Shown here in pieces: positions 573 through 28,752 of a DNA stretch of 44,169 bases. Source of the DNA: an uncultured Verrucomicrobiota bacterium (GTDB lineage Bacteria; Verrucomicrobiota; Verrucomicrobiia; Limisphaerales; CAIQOK01); NCBI GenBank assembly GCA_903873415.1, contig CAIQOK010000128.1, positions 1-44,169 on the forward strand, written 5' to 3'. How positions within the stretch are numbered: position 1 is the first letter of the stretch; the number at the start of each line of letters is the position of its first letter. A program made the position numbers and the translations under genes. The notes under the pieces were generated by a model. The model did no database searches, was not told where the DNA came from, and worked only from the letters and a program-made list of their open reading frames with translations.

Positions 573-3500
573 TCAGGGGGTCAGATAGACAGATCCGCTG
601 AGATGTTCATTGAGGAAGAATCCACCGCCGCTATTTTGCTTCTGCATGAGGACACCCCGGAACCAGAGGGGCTTACCGGTGGCGGGATCGACCACGCGTC
701 CTTGAACGACGCCGGAAGGACGGTTCAGGTTGACTGACATGGCGTTAGGACTCTGGTTGGAGAAAAGGTTATTGGCGCTCAGATTAAAACGGTTGGTAAA
801 GGAGGCGGCCAAAGCGCCGTCGGCAAAAGCAACCTGGCCGCCGGCCAAATTGAGAACCGGAACACCGATCGCGGGGGGGAGATATTTTGAACCGACGACT
901 TCGGAAGTCAGGACAAATCCGGGACCATAATCAAGGGACGAGGGTTGCTGGGGCTTGGACCAGGTGACGGCACCGGAGATATCACTGCCGGGGAGGTTGG
1001 TCAAACTGAGCCAACCCAGCATCAATCCGAGCGTCTGGTGGGTGCTTCCGGCGGGATAAAGCGGAAGATAAAGCGGCCACGCGCCGGTTTTGGAGAGGGC
1101 CGCGGTTTGGGTGACAGGGGTGCCATCCGCAAGCATGCCGTAGAAGGTCACCTTGCCTGCGGGGCTGATTTTCACCGTGGCATAACCGTGCCCGGCGGGC
1201 CGGTCCGTCGCACCGGGCGCTCCGGCAATCAGAACGGTATAGGAGCCCGACTGGGGCGCGCCGTTCGTTGCGGTGTAGGATGCGGCCCCATCAGCCAGCA
1301 GGGATGAGGTCCAGTTGCCATCGGTAACATGCCCGGTTATTTGGCTGGCGCCGGATAGATCGAGCTGCATTTCCACCAACAACGGAGGAACAGATTTGTT
1401 GACCCACGACCGCGAGATTTGGTTGGTGGCCCGGCCGCGGGAATCAAACTGGCCGGAGAATGCGAATTTGTTGCCCGCCACTTGGAGCGTTCCGGAATAA
1501 CCCCCGTCCCGGGTGGTGGTGGCAACAAACGAGCCGGCGCTAAAATAAGTCACTCCGGCGTCCTCATAGAAAAGCCCGCTGTAGGTAGCCTGAGCAGCAA
1601 TGAAGGGGCTCGGGACGAAGTTGGCGTGAAGCACCATTGCGTTTTGCATCACAAACGTCACCGCTGCCGAGTCGCTGTTGGTGGTGCCGGACCAGCCGCC
1701 GAACACCCAACCCGCAGCGGGCGAAGCTGTCATGGTATAAGTGTAGCCGATCCTGAGCGATTGCCCGTTGTAATTCGGGGACACAGTGCCGGTCCCACTA
1801 GAGGTCACTTCAATGAGAGATACGAGTTTGACGCTCAGCACGGCCACCTGGCTGGTCATGCTGCCGGCAGCGTTGGCAACCACCACGGAATAGCCCGCCG
1901 CGTCATTGGTGAGGAGCCCGCTGATGGCCATGGAATTGGACTGCGCGCCGGAGATGCGAAGATCCGACGCAAGGGGGATTCCATTTTTCAACCACTGATA
2001 AGTTGCTGGAGCGGAACTGGCGGCGAGCACATTGAATCCGGCTGTGGTGCCTAACGGGTTGGTTTGACCCAGGGGCTGCGTCAGAATGGCCGGAGGCAGA
2101 ATCAACGTCAGCACCGCCACCAGGCTGGTCACGCTGCCGGCAGCGTTGGTGACGACAACATCATAGTTGCCGGCCTGATTTAGAGTGGTGGCGGGCAGGG
2201 ACAGAGTGGATGCGTTTTGACCCGGAAGCTTGTTACCGGCAAAGCGCCATTGGTAGCCCAGCGGGGAACTCCCTGTCGCGGACACTTGAAAGGCGGCCGT
2301 GGCGCCGGCCACAACGCTCTGACCAACCGGGTCACTCAAGATGGCGGGCGGCACCAGCACGGTAAGAACAGCCGGGGAACTGGCAATGCCGCCGGCGGAA
2401 TTACTGACAACCACCGAGTAAGTTCCGGCATTGGTGACAGCGACCGGATTGATCACCAGATTTGACGCCGTCTGGCCTGTAATCGCTCCGCCGTTCAACA
2501 ACCATTGGTAAGTAAATGGGGCGGTGCCTCGCGCGGTCACTGAAAAATTTGCGCTCCGGCCGTTGGTCGTGGTTAAACTCACAGGCCCGGAAAGAATCGA
2601 AGGTGGAATGATAACCGAAAGGACGGCCACGCTGCTCGTAACTGCCCCGCTGACATTTGTCACCACAACCACATAGCTCCCGGCATTATTGGTGGTGACC
2701 GGATTAACAACAAGGTTGGTGGAGTTTTTACCCGTAAGATTAACACCATTCAACCGCCACTGATATCCCATGGTCAAGGAACTGGAGGCGGTGACTGCGA
2801 AGGTAGCGCTTTGCCCCTGTGCGACGGACTGGCTGGCGGGCTGCGAAAGGATGGCAGGCAACTGGGCTGGCACAACAACCGTTAAAACAGCAGGGGCACT
2901 GGTCACACTTCCCACGCTGTTACTCACGACCACGATGTAGGATCCTGCGCTGTTGGTGGTGACGGGGTTAATGACAAGGCTGGAAGCCGTCTTGCCTGCG
3001 AGGTTTGTCCCAGCCAAACACCACTGATAGGAAAGCCCCGCCCCGGTTGCCCCCACGCTCAGGGTAACCGAGCCACCCGTGGCAACCGATTGGCTGCTGG
3101 GCTGGTTTGTAATGGAAGGGGCTGCTAAGACCGTCAACACGGCCACCACGCTGGTCGCACTCCCGCCGCTGTTGTTCACGACCACATCGTATGCCCCGGC
3201 ATTGGTGGACGAGGCAGGATTGATGGTGAGAATAGAGTTGGTTTGACCGTTGACAGCGCCGCCGTTGAGACGCCATTGATAGCTCAAGGGAGACACGCTG
3301 CCGGCAGTCACAAAAAAGGCCGCAGCCGACCCCGCGTTCACTGTCAAATTGGTTGGCTGACTGGAGATAACCGGAACCGCCGCCGGCAAAGTCAGAGTGA
3401 GAGTGGCGACGGCACTTGTCATACTTCCGCCCATATTACTCACCACCACATCGTAGTTACCCGCATTGCTCGCCACCAGGCTCGAACCGGTCTGACCTGG

Positions 3501-4340
3501 CAATGCGACCCCGGCAAATCGCCACTGATAGGTGATGGGGGAAGTCCCGCTGACCGCCACCGTAAAGGTCCCAACCTGACCGCTTATCACCGATTGATTA
3601 GCCGGTTGCGTCGTTATACCAACCGGCACAATCACCGTCAATCCCGCACTTGAACTGGTGACGCTTCCGCTGGCGTTGGTGACAACCACACTGTAATTGC
3701 CGGCATTGTTTGTTGAGACGGGATTGATGACGAGGTTTGAAGACGTCTGACCGCTCAACGCAGTTCCGTTGAAAAGCCACTGGTAAACCATCGGCGCGGT
3801 TCCGTTGGCAGTCACGACAAACGCCGCGGATTGGCCGTTGGTCACAGTGAGGCTGCCGGGTTGTCCCACAACCACCGGCGGCGCAGCCGTCGACGGAGTA
3901 ACCGTGATCACCAACGTCCCTGTGGTCGTTTGATTTGCAGGGGCGTTGGCCGAGGACTTGGCCGTCAGGCCGACGTTATAAATTCCGATCGTGGTCGGGG
4001 TTCCGGACAGAGTGGAACTGGAAAGAGCCAATCCCGGGGGCAGGCCGGTGGCGGCCCAATAGCCTGCCGACATGGGTGCGGTGGTCAACCGCATGCTAAA
4101 CGCCTTACCTTGGACAATATTGGTGGCCAGCGGACTGGTAATCACGGTGGATGCCCCGGACACCGCATCCACCGCGCCCAAGCTGGCTGCCGCACCGATG
4201 GCCCAGCGGAAAATGATGGCCATTAGACTGGAGGAAGACTCCAGTATGGCCACCGCCGGCCGCGCCACAGGAAGAATCTGCAGCGCGGCCGCCAGCAGGA
4301 GAGACGGAACTCTAAGAACCTGAAAGGCCTTGGTGGACAT
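573..4340 (-). CDS. large secreted protein with eight Ig-like domains
   Basis: A 1255-residue predicted exported protein. An N-terminal hydrophobic signal (roughly residues 8-30, ending near ARPAVA) is followed by a putative Ig/cadherin-like domain with a 'GLPPGLxLSSSTLSGTPT' motif. Eight tandem Ig-like domains of about 80-90 residues follow, each opening with 'QPxxQSVxxGxxxxFxVxA', carrying a 'YQWxxNG' core Trp and closing with 'NAGxYxVVVxNxxGSxTS'. Next comes an InlB B-repeat-like module ('AGWVFGGWSG') and a roughly 330-residue C-terminal region of beta character. The second Ig copy is shorter than the others. I placed the start at the ATG before STKAFQ. A longer frame beginning 21 codons upstream would overlap dsbD and spoil the signal peptide. 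Only 10 bases separate it from dsbD, so co-transcription is likely. Such proteins are thought to act in adhesion or surface structure, but the actual function is unknown. Confidence 0.85.
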   Translation of the reverse strand: MSTKAFQVLRVPSLLLAAALQILPVARPAVAILESSSSLMAIIFRWAIGAAASLGAVDAVSGASTVITSPLATNIVQGKAFSMRLTTAPMSAGYWAATGLPPGLALSSSTLSGTPTTIGIYNVGLTAKSSANAPANQTTTGTLVITVTPSTAAPPVVVGQPGSLTVTNGQSAAFVVTANGTAPMVYQWLFNGTALSGQTSSNLVINPVSTNNAGNYSVVVTNASGSVTSSSAGLTVIVPVGITTQPANQSVISGQVGTFTVAVSGTSPITYQWRFAGVALPGQTGSSLVASNAGNYDVVVSNMGGSMTSAVATLTLTLPAAVPVISSQPTNLTVNAGSAAAFFVTAGSVSPLSYQWRLNGGAVNGQTNSILTINPASSTNAGAYDVVVNNSGGSATSVVAVLTVLAAPSITNQPSSQSVATGGSVTLSVGATGAGLSYQWCLAGTNLAGKTASSLVINPVTTNSAGSYIVVVSNSVGSVTSAPAVLTVVVPAQLPAILSQPASQSVAQGQSATFAVTASSSLTMGYQWRLNGVNLTGKNSTNLVVNPVTTNNAGSYVVVVTNVSGAVTSSVAVLSVIIPPSILSGPVSLTTTNGRSANFSVTARGTAPFTYQWLLNGGAITGQTASNLVINPVAVTNAGTYSVVVSNSAGGIASSPAVLTVLVPPAILSDPVGQSVVAGATAAFQVSATGSSPLGYQWRFAGNKLPGQNASTLSLPATTLNQAGNYDVVVTNAAGSVTSLVAVLTLILPPAILTQPLGQTNPLGTTAGFNVLAASSAPATYQWLKNGIPLASDLRISGAQSNSMAISGLLTNDAAGYSVVVANAAGSMTSQVAVLSVKLVSLIEVTSSGTGTVSPNYNGQSLRIGYTYTMTASPAAGWVFGGWSGTTNSDSAAVTFVMQNAMVLHANFVPSPFIAAQATYSGLFYEDAGVTYFSAGSFVATTTRDGGYSGTLQVAGNKFAFSGQFDSRGRATNQISRSWVNKSVPPLLVEMQLDLSGASQITGHVTDGNWTSSLLADGAASYTATNGAPQSGSYTVLIAGAPGATDRPAGHGYATVKISPAGKVTFYGMLADGTPVTQTAALSKTGAWPLYLPLYPAGSTHQTLGLMLGWLSLTNLPGSDISGAVTWSKPQQPSSLDYGPGFVLTSEVVGSKYLPPAIGVPVLNLAGGQVAFADGALAASFTNRFNLSANNLFSNQSPNAMSVNLNRPSGVVQGRVVDPATGKPLWFRGVLMQKQNSGGGFFLNEHLSGSVYLTP

Positions 4341-4350
4341 AAGATAAAAG

Positions 4351-6009
4351 CTAGTTTTTTTGGTTTTTCGAAGGATTCTCCAATGCTGCAACCGATTTGG
4401 CATTGGGCATAAGGACGATGTAAGTGGGCAGTCCCATCACACCAAACTCGTCCAGCACCGGTTTTAGCGATGCCTCGTTCAAGCGCTCGGCTTGAAATTT
4501 CACAGTGATGAAGTCCTTGGCCAGGCGATCCTGCACCTTTTTGTCGCCGAAGGTGGAGTGCTCCATGGCTTCACAGTTCTTGCACCAACTGGCCCAGAAA
4601 TCGACGACCACCGGGACGCCGGTTTGGCGGGACTGCTTCAAAGCTGATTCCAAGGCGCGAACATCGCTCTCCGCGTTACGAGCCTGCACCTGACCGGCGC
4701 CGGCCCGGCTCAAATCTGTCAGACTATACCCAATCCATCCATACCAGGCCGCAAACCCGAAGATGAACACCCCAAAGGCGTATTTGACGCGGGTCATCCA
4801 AGCACCGGGCTTGGGGAGAAAAGAGAGCCCGGCCGCCGCGAAGGGCCAGGGGATGGCCATGCCTAATCCCAGAACAAAGGGCAGAAGCAAGCCGAATACA
4901 TTGCCCTTTTGATAGAATGATGTGGCCAAGAGCAGGACTGAGATAACGACCGGCGCGACGCAGGCGCCGGCCAACAGCGCGGAAATCGCGCCCATGGTTC
5001 CAGCCGCGACAAAAGCCCCTCCGCCCGAAGACTGCCCGCCCCCGCTTTGACGCTGGAACCGTGACAAATCCACCGCGAGTTTATCAAACATCGCCAGTCC
5101 GAGAATGATAAAAACCGCCGCGATTCCGAAGTTGAACCAGGGACTGGAATTGAGCGTGCCAAACTTTGAACCGGTGAGCACCACGACAAGGCCCAAGACC
5201 CCGTAGGCCAGGGCCATGCCAGACCCATAGGTGCTCCCCAGAAGAAAACTCCGCCTGCGATTTTGATTCTTCGCCCCCGCCCCAAGGATAGCCAGGTTGA
5301 TGGGGATCATCGGCAACACGCAGGGTGTCAGATTCAGGGCCAGCCCGCCCAAGAGAATCAAACCTACCGTCGCCGCGGTGCCGAATTTGGCGAGGTTCGA
5401 AAAGAGATCCTTCGGGGCTTGGGCCAGTCCTTTGGATTCATCGAGGAACCGCAGGAACTTCTCGCTCCCGAGGTATCCGGAAGCACGGGCCGCCACGTGG
5501 AAGTCAGCGGCGAGTTTGCCGCCTCGGGCTTGAGCCGCCGCCGGCGCGGCTTCATCCTCCAACCGTGCAACAGTGCCGGCCGCCCCAATGTTCCAATTGA
5601 GGGTCTCTGGGAAATAGCATTCCGACTCGTTGCAGCCCTGATAATTGACCGTCAGTTTCAGCCCGGTGGCGCGGGAAACGGCCAGAGCATAGGTGGCCAC
5701 GAAATCCTGCTCATAGACCAGCCGTTCAGATTTGCTGAACTTGTCGGTCACCTGCCGGGCGGCGGGAAGCTGCGTGGCGATTCTTGCGCCGTCCAATTCC
5801 AACGAAATCCTGTCGGCATACAGATGGTGATGCTCCGGCACGTGAAACTTTACCGTCAAAATCGGACTCCCATTGGATGCCACCACGGCCGGTGTGACCA
5901 CAAACGGGTTGACCTCCTCCACCGGTTCGGCATGAACGGGGGAGGTAGCCCAGAGCAATTGCGCAAGCAGCAGGGTCGTGCGAAGACCAAAATATTGGCG
6001 GGTTTTCAT
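4351..6009 (-). CDS. dsbD: thiol:disulfide interchange protein DsbD
   Basis: DsbD moves electrons from cytoplasmic thioredoxin across the inner membrane to periplasmic thiol proteins. All three modules are visible in 552 residues. The N-terminal periplasmic alpha domain has its cysteine pair in GCNESECYFPET. A multi-helix membrane domain carries the two conserved cysteines in NLTPCVLPMIP and GACVAPVV. The C-terminal thioredoxin domain has WASWCKNCEAM. I start it at the ATG of MKTRQYF, which gives a normal signal peptide ending at VHA; the frame is open 15 codons further upstream without signal-like sequence. It lies 187 bases after the DUF4266 gene and 10 bases before the Ig-domain gene. With TlpA two genes upstream, it supplies the reducing power of this cluster. 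The C-terminus is a little ragged (ENPSKNQKN), within family variation. Confidence 0.95.
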   Translation of the reverse strand: MKTRQYFGLRTTLLLAQLLWATSPVHAEPVEEVNPFVVTPAVVASNGSPILTVKFHVPEHHHLYADRISLELDGARIATQLPAARQVTDKFSKSERLVYEQDFVATYALAVSRATGLKLTVNYQGCNESECYFPETLNWNIGAAGTVARLEDEAAPAAAQARGGKLAADFHVAARASGYLGSEKFLRFLDESKGLAQAPKDLFSNLAKFGTAATVGLILLGGLALNLTPCVLPMIPINLAILGAGAKNQNRRRSFLLGSTYGSGMALAYGVLGLVVVLTGSKFGTLNSSPWFNFGIAAVFIILGLAMFDKLAVDLSRFQRQSGGGQSSGGGAFVAAGTMGAISALLAGACVAPVVISVLLLATSFYQKGNVFGLLLPFVLGLGMAIPWPFAAAGLSFLPKPGAWMTRVKYAFGVFIFGFAAWYGWIGYSLTDLSRAGAGQVQARNAESDVRALESALKQSRQTGVPVVVDFWASWCKNCEAMEHSTFGDKKVQDRLAKDFITVKFQAERLNEASLKPVLDEFGVMGLPTYIVLMPNAKSVAALENPSKNQKN

Positions 6010-6196: not shown

Positions 6197-6421
6197 TCAG
6201 TTGCAACCGCACCCGCCGCCTCCGATTCCGCGGCCGCCTGTGGCGGCTTCACGCGAAAACCACATGTGTTCGGCCATCATATTGCCAAGCGGATTGGCAT
6301 CCGCCCGCATTACCGGGTCCGCCAGCGCCCCGCGTTCCCAAGGGCTGACATGCTGACAACCGGCGCCAAGCAAAAGAACCAACGGCATTGAAGAGAGGAG
6401 AAAAATTCGGGATAGCGACAT
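6197..6421 (-). CDS. DUF4266-family small lipoprotein with Cys-Gly-Cys tail
   Basis: A 74-residue lipoprotein. The signal peptide ends in a clean lipobox (L-G-A-G-Cys22), and the mature part opens with the family motif HVSPWERGxLADPVM. The remainder is short: a Met/Asn/His-containing stretch (NPLGNMMAEHMWF), then a glycine-rich tail ending GGGGCGCN, so the only cysteines after the lipid anchor are Cys71 and Cys73. I recognise the DUF4266 pattern; its biochemical function is not known to me. The gene sits 7 bases after tlpA. The paired cysteines, the potential metal ligands and the thioredoxin-like neighbours suggest a redox- or metal-handling role on the membrane surface, which is inference. 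Confidence 0.85.
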   Translation of the reverse strand: MSLSRIFLLSSMPLVLLLGAGCQHVSPWERGALADPVMRADANPLGNMMAEHMWFSREAATGGRGIGGGGCGCN

Positions 6422-6428
6422 AATCGGA

Positions 6429-6920
6429 TTATTTCAGGAGTGCTTCAATCTCTTCGGAATATTTCTTTTTGGTTTCCTCACCCTTGAATCCCCGGTGGAA
6501 AGAGTGGATTTTCCCGCTTTTATCCAGCAGGAATGAGCTGGGCATGGTGGGGATTTTCACCTCGCGGACGAGCTTGTTGCCCGCATCCCGAACGATGGAG
6601 AAACTGGCGGCGCGGCCCTTCAAAAAGGCATCCATGTCCGCCTTGTTCTTGTCCAGATTCACCGCCACAATCACCAATCCTTTGGCGGAATATTTCTGAT
6701 AAACCTCCTCCATCACCGGGAAGGACTCCTTGCAGGGGCCGCACCAGGATGCGAAAAAGTCGACCAGCACCACCTTGCCCTGAAGCTCGGGCAGCTTGCC
6801 TTCCAGTCCGTATTTGGCCAGATCCGGGAAGGTGTCTCCTTCCTTGAGCGAGGCGCTGAAGGCAAGGGTGGTTCCAAGAAGGATGGCTGCCAGAGCAGTC
6901 GTGAGTTTTTTTGTGATCAT
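6429..6920 (-). CDS. TlpA-family periplasmic thioredoxin-like protein
   Basis: A 163-residue protein with a signal peptide (MITKKLTTALAAILLGTTLAFSA) and a complete thioredoxin fold of the TlpA/ResA group: active site FASWCGPCKES, the central KGLVIVAVNLD strand and the cis-proline segment KIPTMPSSFLLD. Such proteins reduce specific periplasmic disulfides, for example in cytochrome c maturation, and are re-reduced by DsbD or CcdA. A DsbD is encoded two genes downstream. The gene starts 32 bases after the DUF3570 stop and ends 7 bases before the DUF4266 gene, so it is almost certainly co-transcribed with both. No cytochrome c maturation genes are present nearby, so its client is more likely one of its neighbours. 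Confidence 0.93.
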   Translation of the reverse strand: MITKKLTTALAAILLGTTLAFSASLKEGDTFPDLAKYGLEGKLPELQGKVVLVDFFASWCGPCKESFPVMEEVYQKYSAKGLVIVAVNLDKNKADMDAFLKGRAASFSIVRDAGNKLVREVKIPTMPSSFLLDKSGKIHSFHRGFKGEETKKKYSEEIEALLK

Positions 6921-6952
6921 AGGTTTTATTTTAATGGAATTTGGGTTGCAGG

Positions 6953-8122
6953 CTAAAATCCGACCGTAAGGCCAATGCTGCCAACGTGGGCCTTGGGGTA
7001 TTGGGCGGCGGCGGTGAATCCGTCCGTGCCATACATTTCATAGCGCTTGTAGTCGGCACCGATCGAAACACTCTTCCAGACCTTGACGGTGGCCTCCACC
7101 CCGTAGGTGAAGGAGTTCAGAGCCGAGAGCCGGTAGTCGGCCGAGTAATAGGCCGGCATCTGAATGGGAGACGCCGGATCCGAAGGGTCGCCGGCAAAGT
7201 GCGTTCCGTAAAATGAAGCGGCCGATTGCTTGTGAAAGCGGAACATCGGGGAAAGGACCAGGCGCGAGCCGATTTTTTGATTCCACTGCAAGGATGTGGT
7301 GTGGGCCACGATGCCAAAGCTGTCGTGACTGAAGCGATAAGTCAGCTCGGCCGCCCCGCGCACCGCGTCGAAATAATGCGACAAGGAAGTGAAAACCACC
7401 TGCCGGAGTTTATGATCGGGCCGGTTTTCCGGCCAGACCGTGAAGGGATACGGCGCATAGTAGGGATAATTGTCGAAGAGAACGCGCTTGTAGGGATCGT
7501 TCAGAAAGCCACTCGCATACCCCACGGTCAGATTCAGGGTTGCGATCGTGTTGGGATCCAGCAACTGCGTCAAACCCAGCAGGACATCCGTGTCGTCTTT
7601 TCGAATGGGTGCCTCAACGGGATTCAGGGGCGAGGTGGGCGTGCTGTAATACTCACCCGGGTTTGGCAGGATATGGTCGAAGGAATGGCTCGCGCCTATG
7701 CTCACCGTGGTGTTCTTTTCATTGAAATCAATGGCATCGTTCAACGCCGCGCCGATAGACCGGTAGTCGTGCTCCTGACTGACGGAAAACTGGGGCGTCA
7801 AAGTGTGATTGGACAGCTTGATGGGCAGCTGCAGAAAGCCCCCCTGCCGCATGTCATGCATCTCGGCCATCGCAACAGAAGTCTGGCCGGGCAGAGGCGG
7901 CGCGCCCGTGGGGGTGGCCCCGGACACGGCGTCGTTCACAAAGTTGCCCTGCAGCGAAACTGAGCTGCTCAGCGCGGTATCCCAATACACACCGTGGGTC
8001 TCAATCTCGATTCGCCCGGCGTCCTCCTTGTAATAATCGTAGCGATAATCTACACGGTTTTCGCCTCTGGCCCGCAGGAAAGCGGTCAGGTAGACGAAAC
8101 CGCCCGCGAGCAGGGTGGTCAT
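6953..8122 (-). CDS. DUF3570-family predicted outer-membrane beta-barrel
   Basis: A protein of about 389 residues with alternating polar/aromatic strands throughout, ending in an aromatic C-terminal strand (HVGSIGLTVGF) as outer-membrane barrel proteins do. The stretch VNDAVSGATPTGAPP and the NRVDYRYDYYKED opening match what I know as DUF3570. I chose the ATG of MTTLLAGGFVYL as start because it gives a short signal-like hydrophobic segment directly before the conserved region. The frame stays open 44 codons upstream (to 8254) but that part has no signal character, and an AT-rich promoter-like stretch (about 8176-8192) lies inside it. The gene is first in the run DUF3570-tlpA-DUF4266-dsbD-Ig. 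A transport or envelope role is likely; the substrate is unknown. Confidence 0.82.
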   Translation of the reverse strand: MTTLLAGGFVYLTAFLRARGENRVDYRYDYYKEDAGRIEIETHGVYWDTALSSSVSLQGNFVNDAVSGATPTGAPPLPGQTSVAMAEMHDMRQGGFLQLPIKLSNHTLTPQFSVSQEHDYRSIGAALNDAIDFNEKNTTVSIGASHSFDHILPNPGEYYSTPTSPLNPVEAPIRKDDTDVLLGLTQLLDPNTIATLNLTVGYASGFLNDPYKRVLFDNYPYYAPYPFTVWPENRPDHKLRQVVFTSLSHYFDAVRGAAELTYRFSHDSFGIVAHTTSLQWNQKIGSRLVLSPMFRFHKQSAASFYGTHFAGDPSDPASPIQMPAYYSADYRLSALNSFTYGVEATVKVWKSVSIGADYKRYEMYGTDGFTAAAQYPKAHVGSIGLTVGF

Positions 8123-26280: not shown

Positions 26281-26423
26281 GGGTCCCATCGTAGCACTCC
26301 GCGAAGAATAAGTAATGGATTTTTTGAGATGCCGCATCGCTCCTTGCCCGGCCTATGGACGGCTCGGGCAAAGGGACGATTAGCCCGCAAGCCCGGCCTG
26401 GCCTGGCCTGCTTTCACGCCAAC

Positions 26424-28505
26424 TCAGGCAAAGACTATCTCGGTGGTAGCGGCGTCGGCATCCCAACCCCGTGTGGGGCCGGCGGTCACAGAGGAAATAT
26501 CTTTGATGGAGATTTGGCGGCCGAGCGTTTTCGGGGACTTAATCTCGATCAGCTCGGGGTTGCAGGTCTGTTGGCTGACTTTCTGGTGCGGTGCCGGCTT
26601 GTAGCGGACAAAGAGTTTCTTGGGGGTGCCGGGGGCCAGAAACAGCAACCGCGACTTCTCAGGAATGCAGGAATAGGTCTTGTTGAGAATGGTGCCCCCA
26701 AATTTAAACCGCTTCAGATAACTCGCATTCCGGTCGCTGTAAGCACAGGTGTAAACCTGCTCGCGATCCGGCAGCCCGCAGAAATAGACATCCGGACCGA
26801 CGAAGAGTTTTTCCGGCAGCTCGCTCACCTTGTAGGTTCCATCCTTGAAGATAAGCAGCAGTTTGTCGAACTTGGTGCACTCAAGCTTGAATTCCTCGCC
26901 GCTGACCTTGTAGCCCACATAGCCGCTTTCCCGGTCGTAGCTCACCTTGAAAGCTTTGAAAGCCACCGCCTTGACGTCGACCTCCTCGTGCCGGGAGGAT
27001 TTCGTGGTCAGGCGGGGATAAAGCGGACCATACTTGGCGAGCAGCGTCTCCAAATGCCCAATGGCATAGCGGGTCAGGTTCTTGAGATTTTTCTGCGTCT
27101 CGGCCAGATCGGCTTTGACCTTGTCCATCTCCTGCCGGTGCTTGCTGATGTCGAAGAGCGAAATGCGGCGGATGCGCACCTGAAGCAGACGTTCGACGTC
27201 CGGGTCGGTAAGGCTGCGGACCAGCTGCTTTGCAAAGGGCAGGAAGCCCTCGTAGACGGACGCCATGACCGCCTCGTTGGTCTTACACTGCTCGATTTTT
27301 TTGTAGATCCGCTCCTCGATGAAAATACGTTCCAAGGTGCGGAAATGCAGCTCATCTTCCAGCTGCTTGAGCTTGAGCTCCAGCTCCTGTTTGAGCAGGG
27401 CTACGAGCTGGGCCGTGTTGGCCCGCAACACTTCGCTCACGGTCAGTTCCACAGGCCGGTTGGCCCGGATGACGATGATGCGACTGGTGAGCGATATTTC
27501 GCAATCCGTGAAGGCGTAAAGCGCGTCCACCAACTTCTCAGCCTCCACACCGGCGGGACAGCGCACCTCGATCTCCACCGTCTCGGAGGTGAAATCATTG
27601 ATCGACTTGACCTTGAGTTTGCCTTTGCGGGTGGCGTCCTCGATCGAGGCAATCAGCGACTCGGTGGTGGTGCTGGGAGGGATCTCCTTGATCACCACGG
27701 TCGACTCGTCTTTGACCTTGAGTTTGGCGCGGACTTTGACCGAGCCTTTGCCATCCTGATAATCGCGGGCATCCATCAGGCCGCCCGTCGGAAAATCCGG
27801 CAGGCACTTGAATGGCTCGTTCTTGAGGATGGCGATCTGGGCCTGCAACAGCTCGGGGAAATTATGCGGCAGAATCCGTGCCGACAACCCCACCGCGATG
27901 CCTTCGGTGCCCAGCATCAGGGTGACCGGCAGTTTGCACGGCAGGGTGACCGGCTCGCGGTTGCGCCCGTCGTAGCTCGGCACAAACTCAGTGATCTCGT
28001 CATTGAAGAGCTCCGTGCGAGCCAACTCTGTCAGGCGGCACTCGATGTAACGCGGCGCGGCCGCAGGATCGCCGGTGTAAATATTCCCGAAATTCCCCTG
28101 CCCCTCGATGAGGTAGCGCTTGTTGGCCAGCACCACCAGCGCATCGCCAATGGAGGCGTCGCCATGCGGATGGTATTGCATCGTGTGCCCGACGACATTG
28201 GCCACCTTGATAAAACGTCCGTCATCCTTCTCATGCAGCGCCCAAAGAATGCGCCTTTGCACCGGTTTGAGCCCGTCGACCAGATGCGGGATGGCACGGT
28301 CGCGGATGACGTAGCTGGCATATTCCAGGAAGCTCGTGTTGACACGCCGGTGCAGCGCCAGCTCGATCTTACCGGGAACGAAAGGGTGCGGGGCATGGGC
28401 GGGCACCGGTTCGGCCACGATTTCGGCGTGGTTGCTGCCATTGCCCGCTTCTGCGGTAATCTTCAAATTCAACTGACCGGGATCTTTTTTTTCTTTGTCG
28501 GACAT
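26424..28505 (-). CDS. parC: DNA topoisomerase IV subunit A (ParC-like)
   Basis: The strand-cutting subunit of a type IIA topoisomerase. In 693 residues the breakage-reunion core is complete: YASYVIRDRAIPHLVDGLKPVQRRIL, ANVVGHTMQYHPHGDASIGDAL, and the catalytic tyrosine in APRYIECRLTE (Tyr153). A coiled-coil gate (residues about 370-480) follows, then a shortened C-terminal DNA-wrapping region rather than six full GyrA blades. The wording GRFIKVANVVGHTMQYHPHGDASIGD and EGIAVGLSARILPHNF matches Bacteroidetes/Chlamydia-type ParC rather than GyrA. No parE or gyrB lies beside it. A 40-residue acidic/Pro-rich N-terminal extension precedes the core. Confidence 0.9.
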   Translation of the reverse strand: MSDKEKKDPGQLNLKITAEAGNGSNHAEIVAEPVPAHAPHPFVPGKIELALHRRVNTSFLEYASYVIRDRAIPHLVDGLKPVQRRILWALHEKDDGRFIKVANVVGHTMQYHPHGDASIGDALVVLANKRYLIEGQGNFGNIYTGDPAAAPRYIECRLTELARTELFNDEITEFVPSYDGRNREPVTLPCKLPVTLMLGTEGIAVGLSARILPHNFPELLQAQIAILKNEPFKCLPDFPTGGLMDARDYQDGKGSVKVRAKLKVKDESTVVIKEIPPSTTTESLIASIEDATRKGKLKVKSINDFTSETVEIEVRCPAGVEAEKLVDALYAFTDCEISLTSRIIVIRANRPVELTVSEVLRANTAQLVALLKQELELKLKQLEDELHFRTLERIFIEERIYKKIEQCKTNEAVMASVYEGFLPFAKQLVRSLTDPDVERLLQVRIRRISLFDISKHRQEMDKVKADLAETQKNLKNLTRYAIGHLETLLAKYGPLYPRLTTKSSRHEEVDVKAVAFKAFKVSYDRESGYVGYKVSGEEFKLECTKFDKLLLIFKDGTYKVSELPEKLFVGPDVYFCGLPDREQVYTCAYSDRNASYLKRFKFGGTILNKTYSCIPEKSRLLFLAPGTPKKLFVRYKPAPHQKVSQQTCNPELIEIKSPKTLGRQISIKDISSVTAGPTRGWDADAATTEIVFA

Positions 28506-28752
28506 GGGGCGTCAGTGCTCGCCGCGGCATTCTCTGGGACCGCGGTCGGCGAAATCCTGCGAGCAACCGCCCCAAAAGAAAAGAACTCTTTAATCTAAAA
28601 ACAAAGCCACCATGGACCTCCCTGCCACACCGGTCGGCTTCCACTCCAAAATCAACCGACGATTGGCAACACCCTACATGGCAAAACCAGCCCGGAATTC
28701 GATTTTGTTCCCCCCATGAGAACCAAAAGGCCTGTGCGCCCTCGATTGGAAA

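Follow-up and report, generated by a model that had tools for sequence, protein, structure and literature searches.

An ApbE-detached variant of the DsbD-type flavinylation cluster in an uncultured Verrucomicrobiota bacterium and its undescribed partner gene

Heme-free electron routes over the outer membrane (OM) are poorly known. The window analysed here, a stretch of 44,169 nucleotides from an uncultured Verrucomicrobiota bacterium, encodes on one strand a protein of the DUF3570 family, a thioredoxin, a DUF4266 lipoprotein and DsbD, and it raises the question of what these proteins do together and whether they could constitute such a route. We find that the locus is an ApbE-detached variant of a known cluster type, the DsbD-type flavinylation cluster, and that it exposes a partner gene that has not been described. 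The reading examined below, in which the unit is a flavinylation system that relays electrons from thiols to a flavin and so from the inner membrane (IM) to the cell surface, is one to which we give an even chance.

Gene order and membership in a known cluster type

The coordinates of the four genes on the minus strand, together with their Pfam matches (Table 1), agree with the gene set given in the preliminary description of this DNA. Its spacings of 32, 7 and 187 bases are exact, and the lipobox (LGAGC22) and tail (GGGGCGCN) that it gave for DUF4266 match the sequence. A fifth co-directional gene, encoding an Ig-repeat protein with its likely start 10 bases past the DsbD stop, belongs to the same unit. 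Promoter and terminator scans gave no excess over shuffled sequence, and an Rfam search returned no match.

Table 1. Features of the locus and of the surrounding window
Feature	Coordinates	Strand	Remarks
carA	9025	+	Divergent upstream neighbour; name taken from sequence
DUF3570 gene	8122-6953	-	PF12094, E 4.4e-66; longest ORF begins at TTG 8254
SGAT in DUF3570	7913-7924	-	Residues 67-70, inside DAVSGATPTG; FMN predicted on Thr70
TlpA/ResA-like thioredoxin gene	6920-6429	-	Leader peptide and WCGPC
DUF4266 lipoprotein gene	6421-6197	-	74 residues; PF14086, E 9.1e-20
C-terminal CGC dithiol of DUF4266	6203-6211	-	
DsbD gene	6009-4351	-	Full-length, with periplasmic N, membrane and thioredoxin domains
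Ig-repeat protein gene	573-4340	-	Longest ORF begins at 4403; likely start ATG 4340
SGAS in Ig-repeat protein	4149-4160	-	Residues 61-64, counted from ATG 4340; within DAVSGAST
747-aa ORF	26355-28598	+	Zero Pfam matches; a 693-aa ORF overlaps on the opposite strand

The preliminary description called this system uncharacterised, which has to be corrected: clusters of DUF3570, thioredoxin, DUF4266 and DsbD were already reported by Meheust et al. (2021, eLife; PMC8238504), who demonstrated ApbE-dependent FMN attachment on a Chlorobium (C. luteolum) DUF3570 at two [S/T]GA[S/T] motifs. According to that paper, 285 flavinylation clusters have DsbD, with DUF3570 in 227 and DUF4266 in 221; the conserved CXC of DUF4266 "may undergo redox cycling", and a thioredoxin/flavin hybrid supplied by DsbD is proposed. 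So far this kind of system is a prediction of which a single biochemical step, the flavinylation of DUF3570, has been demonstrated.

The window shares with the published DsbD-type clusters a DUF3570 with the target motif, a thioredoxin-like protein, a DUF4266 with C-terminal CXC and a DsbD within a few genes. The definition in PMC8238504 places PF02683 at most five genes from a DUF3570, FMN-binding, DUF2271 or ApbE gene, and the window DsbD lies three genes from DUF3570; for the thioredoxin, that paper counts PF13899, while the window TlpA matches PF08534/PF13905. The window differs from these clusters in three respects. It has no ApbE in the cluster, which is typical but not obligatory in PMC8238504; its DUF3570 carries one target motif, SGAT, the second motif of C. 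luteolum being absent; and it has the additional Ig-repeat gene.

Conserved linkage, on which the preliminary description had staked its reading, was found across four phyla. Of 241 genomes in the phylum, 25 contain DUF4266 and 26 contain DUF3570; both are present in each of the 25 with DUF4266, no more than a few kb apart, a linkage far beyond chance. Linked clusters are present in Verrucomicrobiota, Kiritimatiellota, Pseudomonadota and Gemmatimonadota, and one conserved envelope redox unit is supported. We parsed the architectures of about 100 clusters (loci labelled L); the DUF4266 profile search used a narrow alignment, as a broad one offered no sufficiently conserved stretch. The order is DUF3570-ApbE-TlpA-DUF4266(-DsbD) in Verrucomicrobiota and TlpA-DUF4266-DUF3570(-ApbE) in most Pseudomonadota. 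No natural fusion of DUF4266 and DUF3570 was found among the clusters; the long ORFs of L135, L138 and L145 were examined as candidates and are not fusions.

Some loci deserve separate mention. Two copies of the DUF3570/TlpA/DUF4266 cluster lie close together in L094, in L068/L069 (genome G170) and in L070/L071 (genome G182), and in L094 neither copy has ApbE. The records of L102, L130 and L154 bear the names Akkermansia muciniphila and Klebsiella pneumoniae, apparently in error: the cluster genes in them fall with uncultured freshwater-type Verrucomicrobiota or lie deep among diverse Pseudomonadota MAGs.

As an alternative, TlpA and DsbD could be general periplasmic reductants, acting in cytochrome c maturation or disulfide repair, that lie beside a functionally unrelated DUF3570/DUF4266 pair. 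The preliminary description had argued against such a role from the lack of any cytochrome c maturation gene. This is true of the window and untrue of the genome, and the argument is weak because cytochrome assembly proteins are encoded outside the window: contigs C60, C171 and C188 hold two Cytochrom_C_asm proteins and a second DsbD_TM protein. TlpA and DsbD may in consequence serve other clients, and these proteins are possible other clients or sources for a thiol relay. The linkage of DsbD, moreover, is limited to a minority of clusters. However, TlpA adjoins DUF4266 in nearly all clusters, in several phyla and in both gene orders, and DsbD directly follows DUF4266 in nine further loci (L091, L093, L094, L105, L111, L113, L115, L118 and L119), and we regard an accidental juxtaposition as improbable.

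Predicted barrel, lipoprotein arm and proposed thiol supply

The alignment-based AlphaFold2 model of DUF3570 (mean pLDDT 90.8, pTM 0.86) has 16 long strands and long loops on one side, and the PDB matches listed are OM barrels only, mostly with TM <0.5. The protein is predicted to be a 16-strand OM beta-barrel. As the matches are generic barrels with low TM-scores, they were not informative on function. PMC8238504 also looks for a signal peptide or lipidation on at least one target gene product. The N-terminus of the window DUF3570 is hydrophobic but, judged by eye, weak as a signal peptide; the C-terminus, GLTVGF, resembles OM beta-signals, and the barrel fold together with the C-terminal Phe argues for export.

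The DAVSGAT-type motif of the window DUF3570 is conserved in its relatives, and the protein is a candidate ApbE substrate. Loss of the motif might be expected in clusters without ApbE, but most of these, the window included, retain it; L134 has SGQT. With both termini set periplasmic, as in known barrels, Thr70 falls at the top end of strand 3, next to one of the extracellular loops. By in/out periodicity, and with strand order and topology rather than coordinates as the guide, Thr70 would face the lumen, as would almost all of the polar residues checked in the strands that are invariant or nearly so (Y31, E33, R92, E117, D149, K175, R263, D267, R295 and Q299). Mean identity rises with height toward the extracellular end (0.33, 0.37, 0.40, 0.44), and the top quarter holds 15 of the 29 strongly conserved strand positions. 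From this model we infer that, where the barrel opens to the outside, a pocket lined by Arg, Asp and Glu would house the flavin. In some DUF3570 proteins from other classes of the phylum (L077, L079, L080, L082 and L084-L086), a long Ser/Pro/Ala-rich insert follows just past the flavinylation motif and falls in a predicted extracellular loop.

In DUF4266, the residues invariant across 55 relatives are the lipid-anchor Cys22, H52, E58, G67, G68 and the final G70-C71-G72-C73-N74. CGC ends every DUF4266 listed, nearly always as GCGCN. The model has a helix at residues 44-60 and pLDDT below 50 for the tail at 66-74, so that the tail is, as modelled, a disordered yet invariant arm. A Gly-rich dithiol arm that is disordered but conserved would suit a carrier docking in two places. 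On the supply side, TlpA is ResA-like, with matches to Redoxin, Thioredoxin_8 and AhpC-TSA, and WCxPC is present in the TlpA of nearly all cluster relatives; DsbD has the domains PF11412 (DsbD_N), PF02683 (DsbD_TM) and PF13899 (thioredoxin). For a CGC disulfide the E0' is -167 mV, a value from Woycechowsky and Raines (2003) that PMC4316792 cites; for a triple-FMN protein of the ApbE type it is -184 mV (PMC12052999). Exchange between thiol and flavin is therefore energetically possible in either direction.

The same arm could instead handle metal, one of the options in the preliminary description, whose idea as a whole is partly supported. In this version GGGGCGCN would bind Cu(I), Fe or Zn and be kept reduced by TlpA and DsbD, and DUF3570 would serve as a channel for the metal. 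CxC tails are binders of soft metals, both TlpA and DsbD act as thiol reductants, and the iron transporter VIT1 is present in 25 of the published DUF3570 clusters (PMC8238504). However, a metal role leaves unexplained both the ApbE beside DUF3570 in most clusters and the conserved flavinylation motif, and in our neighbour count neither metal transporters nor genes for metal resistance recurred beside the clusters. We consider it unlikely; a tail that hands electrons to the DUF3570 flavin fits better than one reduced for metal binding.

A candidate flavin transferase on another contig

If DUF3570 carries a flavin in this bacterium, its transferase would have to come from elsewhere in the genome. 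ApbE is normally encoded between DUF3570 and TlpA, and it is missing from the window cluster, as the preliminary description had noted. The link of ApbE to such clusters that it mentioned is real; most relatives do have one there, including L091 and L093, the nearest to the window by the DUF3570 tree. The window genome encodes two ApbEs, one on contig C34 and one on C134. The C34 gene stands isolated between pgk and mlaD homologues, and its product nests among cluster-linked ApbEs with support of 100/99 and has 71% identity to the ApbE of L119. It groups with L113/L114/L116/L119/L122 and not with L091/L093, but the AU test, with p 0.06 for the latter grouping, does not reject it; the C34 ApbE may or may not be the cluster's own displaced copy. 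Neither FMN_bind nor NqrB/RnfD proteins were found in the window genome, so that of the ApbE substrates tested (FMN_bind, NqrB/RnfD and DUF3570) it has DUF3570 alone. In ten further genomes the region of the cluster yielded no ApbE; all ten carry ApbEs elsewhere, and in 8 of the 10 at least one of these belongs to the cluster clade.

A further difficulty concerns the compartment. In nearly all clusters (genes of L091-L170 and L062-L088), even the longest possible ApbE frame has no hydrophobic leader as predicted by hydropathy alone, the main exceptions being L078, L083 and L087. Leaderless ApbEs that act on cytosolic substrates are known, for example that of Klebsiella fumarate reductase (PMC12052999). 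With a leaderless ApbE and an exported DUF3570, either FMN would be added before export or ApbE would enter the envelope in some other way. The passages of PMC8238504 on these clusters do not raise this puzzle, which poses the general question of protein flavinylation prior to export. Proteobacterial genomes with a leaderless cluster ApbE also hold separate ApbEs, some with leader-like N-termini.

A second candidate substrate, the proposed relay and related systems

Clustering of the neighbouring genes gave one further conserved family beside the clusters, to which the Ig-repeat protein belongs. Its members share a hydrophobic N-terminal domain of ~75 residues, followed by Ig, He_PIG or cadherin-like repeats; the window protein has matches to Ig_3, I-set and Flg_new_2. 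The domain, common to the window protein and 66 further ORFs next to clusters, has no covering Pfam family and no PDB sequence match, and an Ig-repeat gene with such a motif-bearing domain is not mentioned in the passages of PMC8238504 on these clusters. Its final heptad is DAVSGAS in the window protein, against DAVSGAT in the window DUF3570. The 67 ORFs come from 57 loci; their motif closes with Ser or Thr in 67/67, and reads xGA[ST] in 58/67 and [ST]GA[ST] in 34/67. Thirteen of the 241 genomes have the domain, all 13 with the cluster, and none of the 216 genomes without DUF4266 has it (hypergeometric 5e-15, shared ancestry not corrected for). Second, unlinked copies are also confined to cluster-bearing genomes; one such copy, with DAVSGAST, lies in the window genome on contig C45, 12527-12736 (L203). 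The domain was not found in Pseudomonadota, nor in clusters from the phylum's other classes.

Judging by its motifs, the domain may be an ApbE substrate or a long leader ending in a signal-peptidase site, as both fit all or most of them. Under the second of these, [SATV]GA[ST] would be merely the cleavage site and the protein an ordinary secreted adhesin. All 67 motifs obey the small-residue rule at -3/-1, and in a few the G is replaced by Q, R or A (SQAS, SRAS, SAAS), a change that a flavinylation motif should not accept. On the other hand, signal peptidase requires neither the Gly at position 2 (59/67) nor the final Ser/Thr; the DUF3570 proteins of these lineages tolerate the same first-position residues (S, A, T and V), and the domain is restricted to genomes with the cluster. 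We see the adhesin as having about a one-in-two chance of being correct.

Returning to the relay, the DsbD family passes electrons from cytosolic thioredoxin over the IM, and the window DsbD would do the same. A periplasmic TlpA-like protein would accept these electrons and reduce the CGC that ends the flexible Gly-rich arm of the OM lipoprotein DUF4266. Entering the barrel of DUF3570 on its periplasmic side, the arm would then reduce an FMN esterified to Thr70, near the extracellular mouth of the lumen, and this flavin would in turn reduce an acceptor outside, possibly ferric iron. The cluster-type ApbE on C34 would attach the FMN, a step demonstrated for a homologue, and the Ig-repeat protein may be a second flavin carrier or a surface partner.

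Counted in favour of this relay are the families described in PMC8238504, their linkage, DAVSGAT, the barrel model with its lumen-facing conserved residues, the DUF4266 arm, the potentials, and the C34 ApbE in a genome that lacks FMN_bind and NqrB/RnfD proteins. Counted against it are the lack of a cluster ApbE, the presence of just one of the two C. luteolum motifs, the leaderless ApbE, the weak signal peptide of DUF3570, the other DsbD-like and cytochrome assembly genes, and the placement of Thr70 without coordinates. A fuller version, which we put forward tentatively and at well under an even chance, has the thiol relay feed a flavinylated surface protein as well as the flavinylated barrel, with the ~75-residue domain as an undescribed family of ApbE substrates and a leaderless ApbE adding FMN before export.

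Should the relay be correct, it would be a compact heme-free route, present in at least four phyla, that combines dithiol carriers with a flavin bound covalently inside a barrel. The role of DUF3570 and the crossing of the OM would become testable through Thr70, the CGC arm and the C34 ApbE, and the N-terminal domain of the Ig-repeat protein, if flavinylated, would add a new family of ApbE substrates.

Three known systems can be compared with the one proposed here. MtrCAB-type conduits are OM electron conduits that use hemes; they likewise hold a redox carrier within an OM barrel and send electrons outside, whereas the window system lacks hemes, would rely on dithiols and covalently bound FMN, and by sequence does not belong to them. 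High-Mr thioredoxin reductase has a flexible C-terminal redox arm, a Gly/Cys tail that, like the proposed DUF4266 arm, shuttles electrons between thioredoxin and a flavin site; DUF4266, in contrast, is a separate lipoprotein with the opposite proposed direction and no sequence relation. The FmnB/PplA system of Listeria (PMC9973259) is Gram-positive and has an exported flavin transferase, no thiol relay and no OM, but there too an exported protein, flavinylated in the ApbE manner, passes electrons to acceptors outside the cell.
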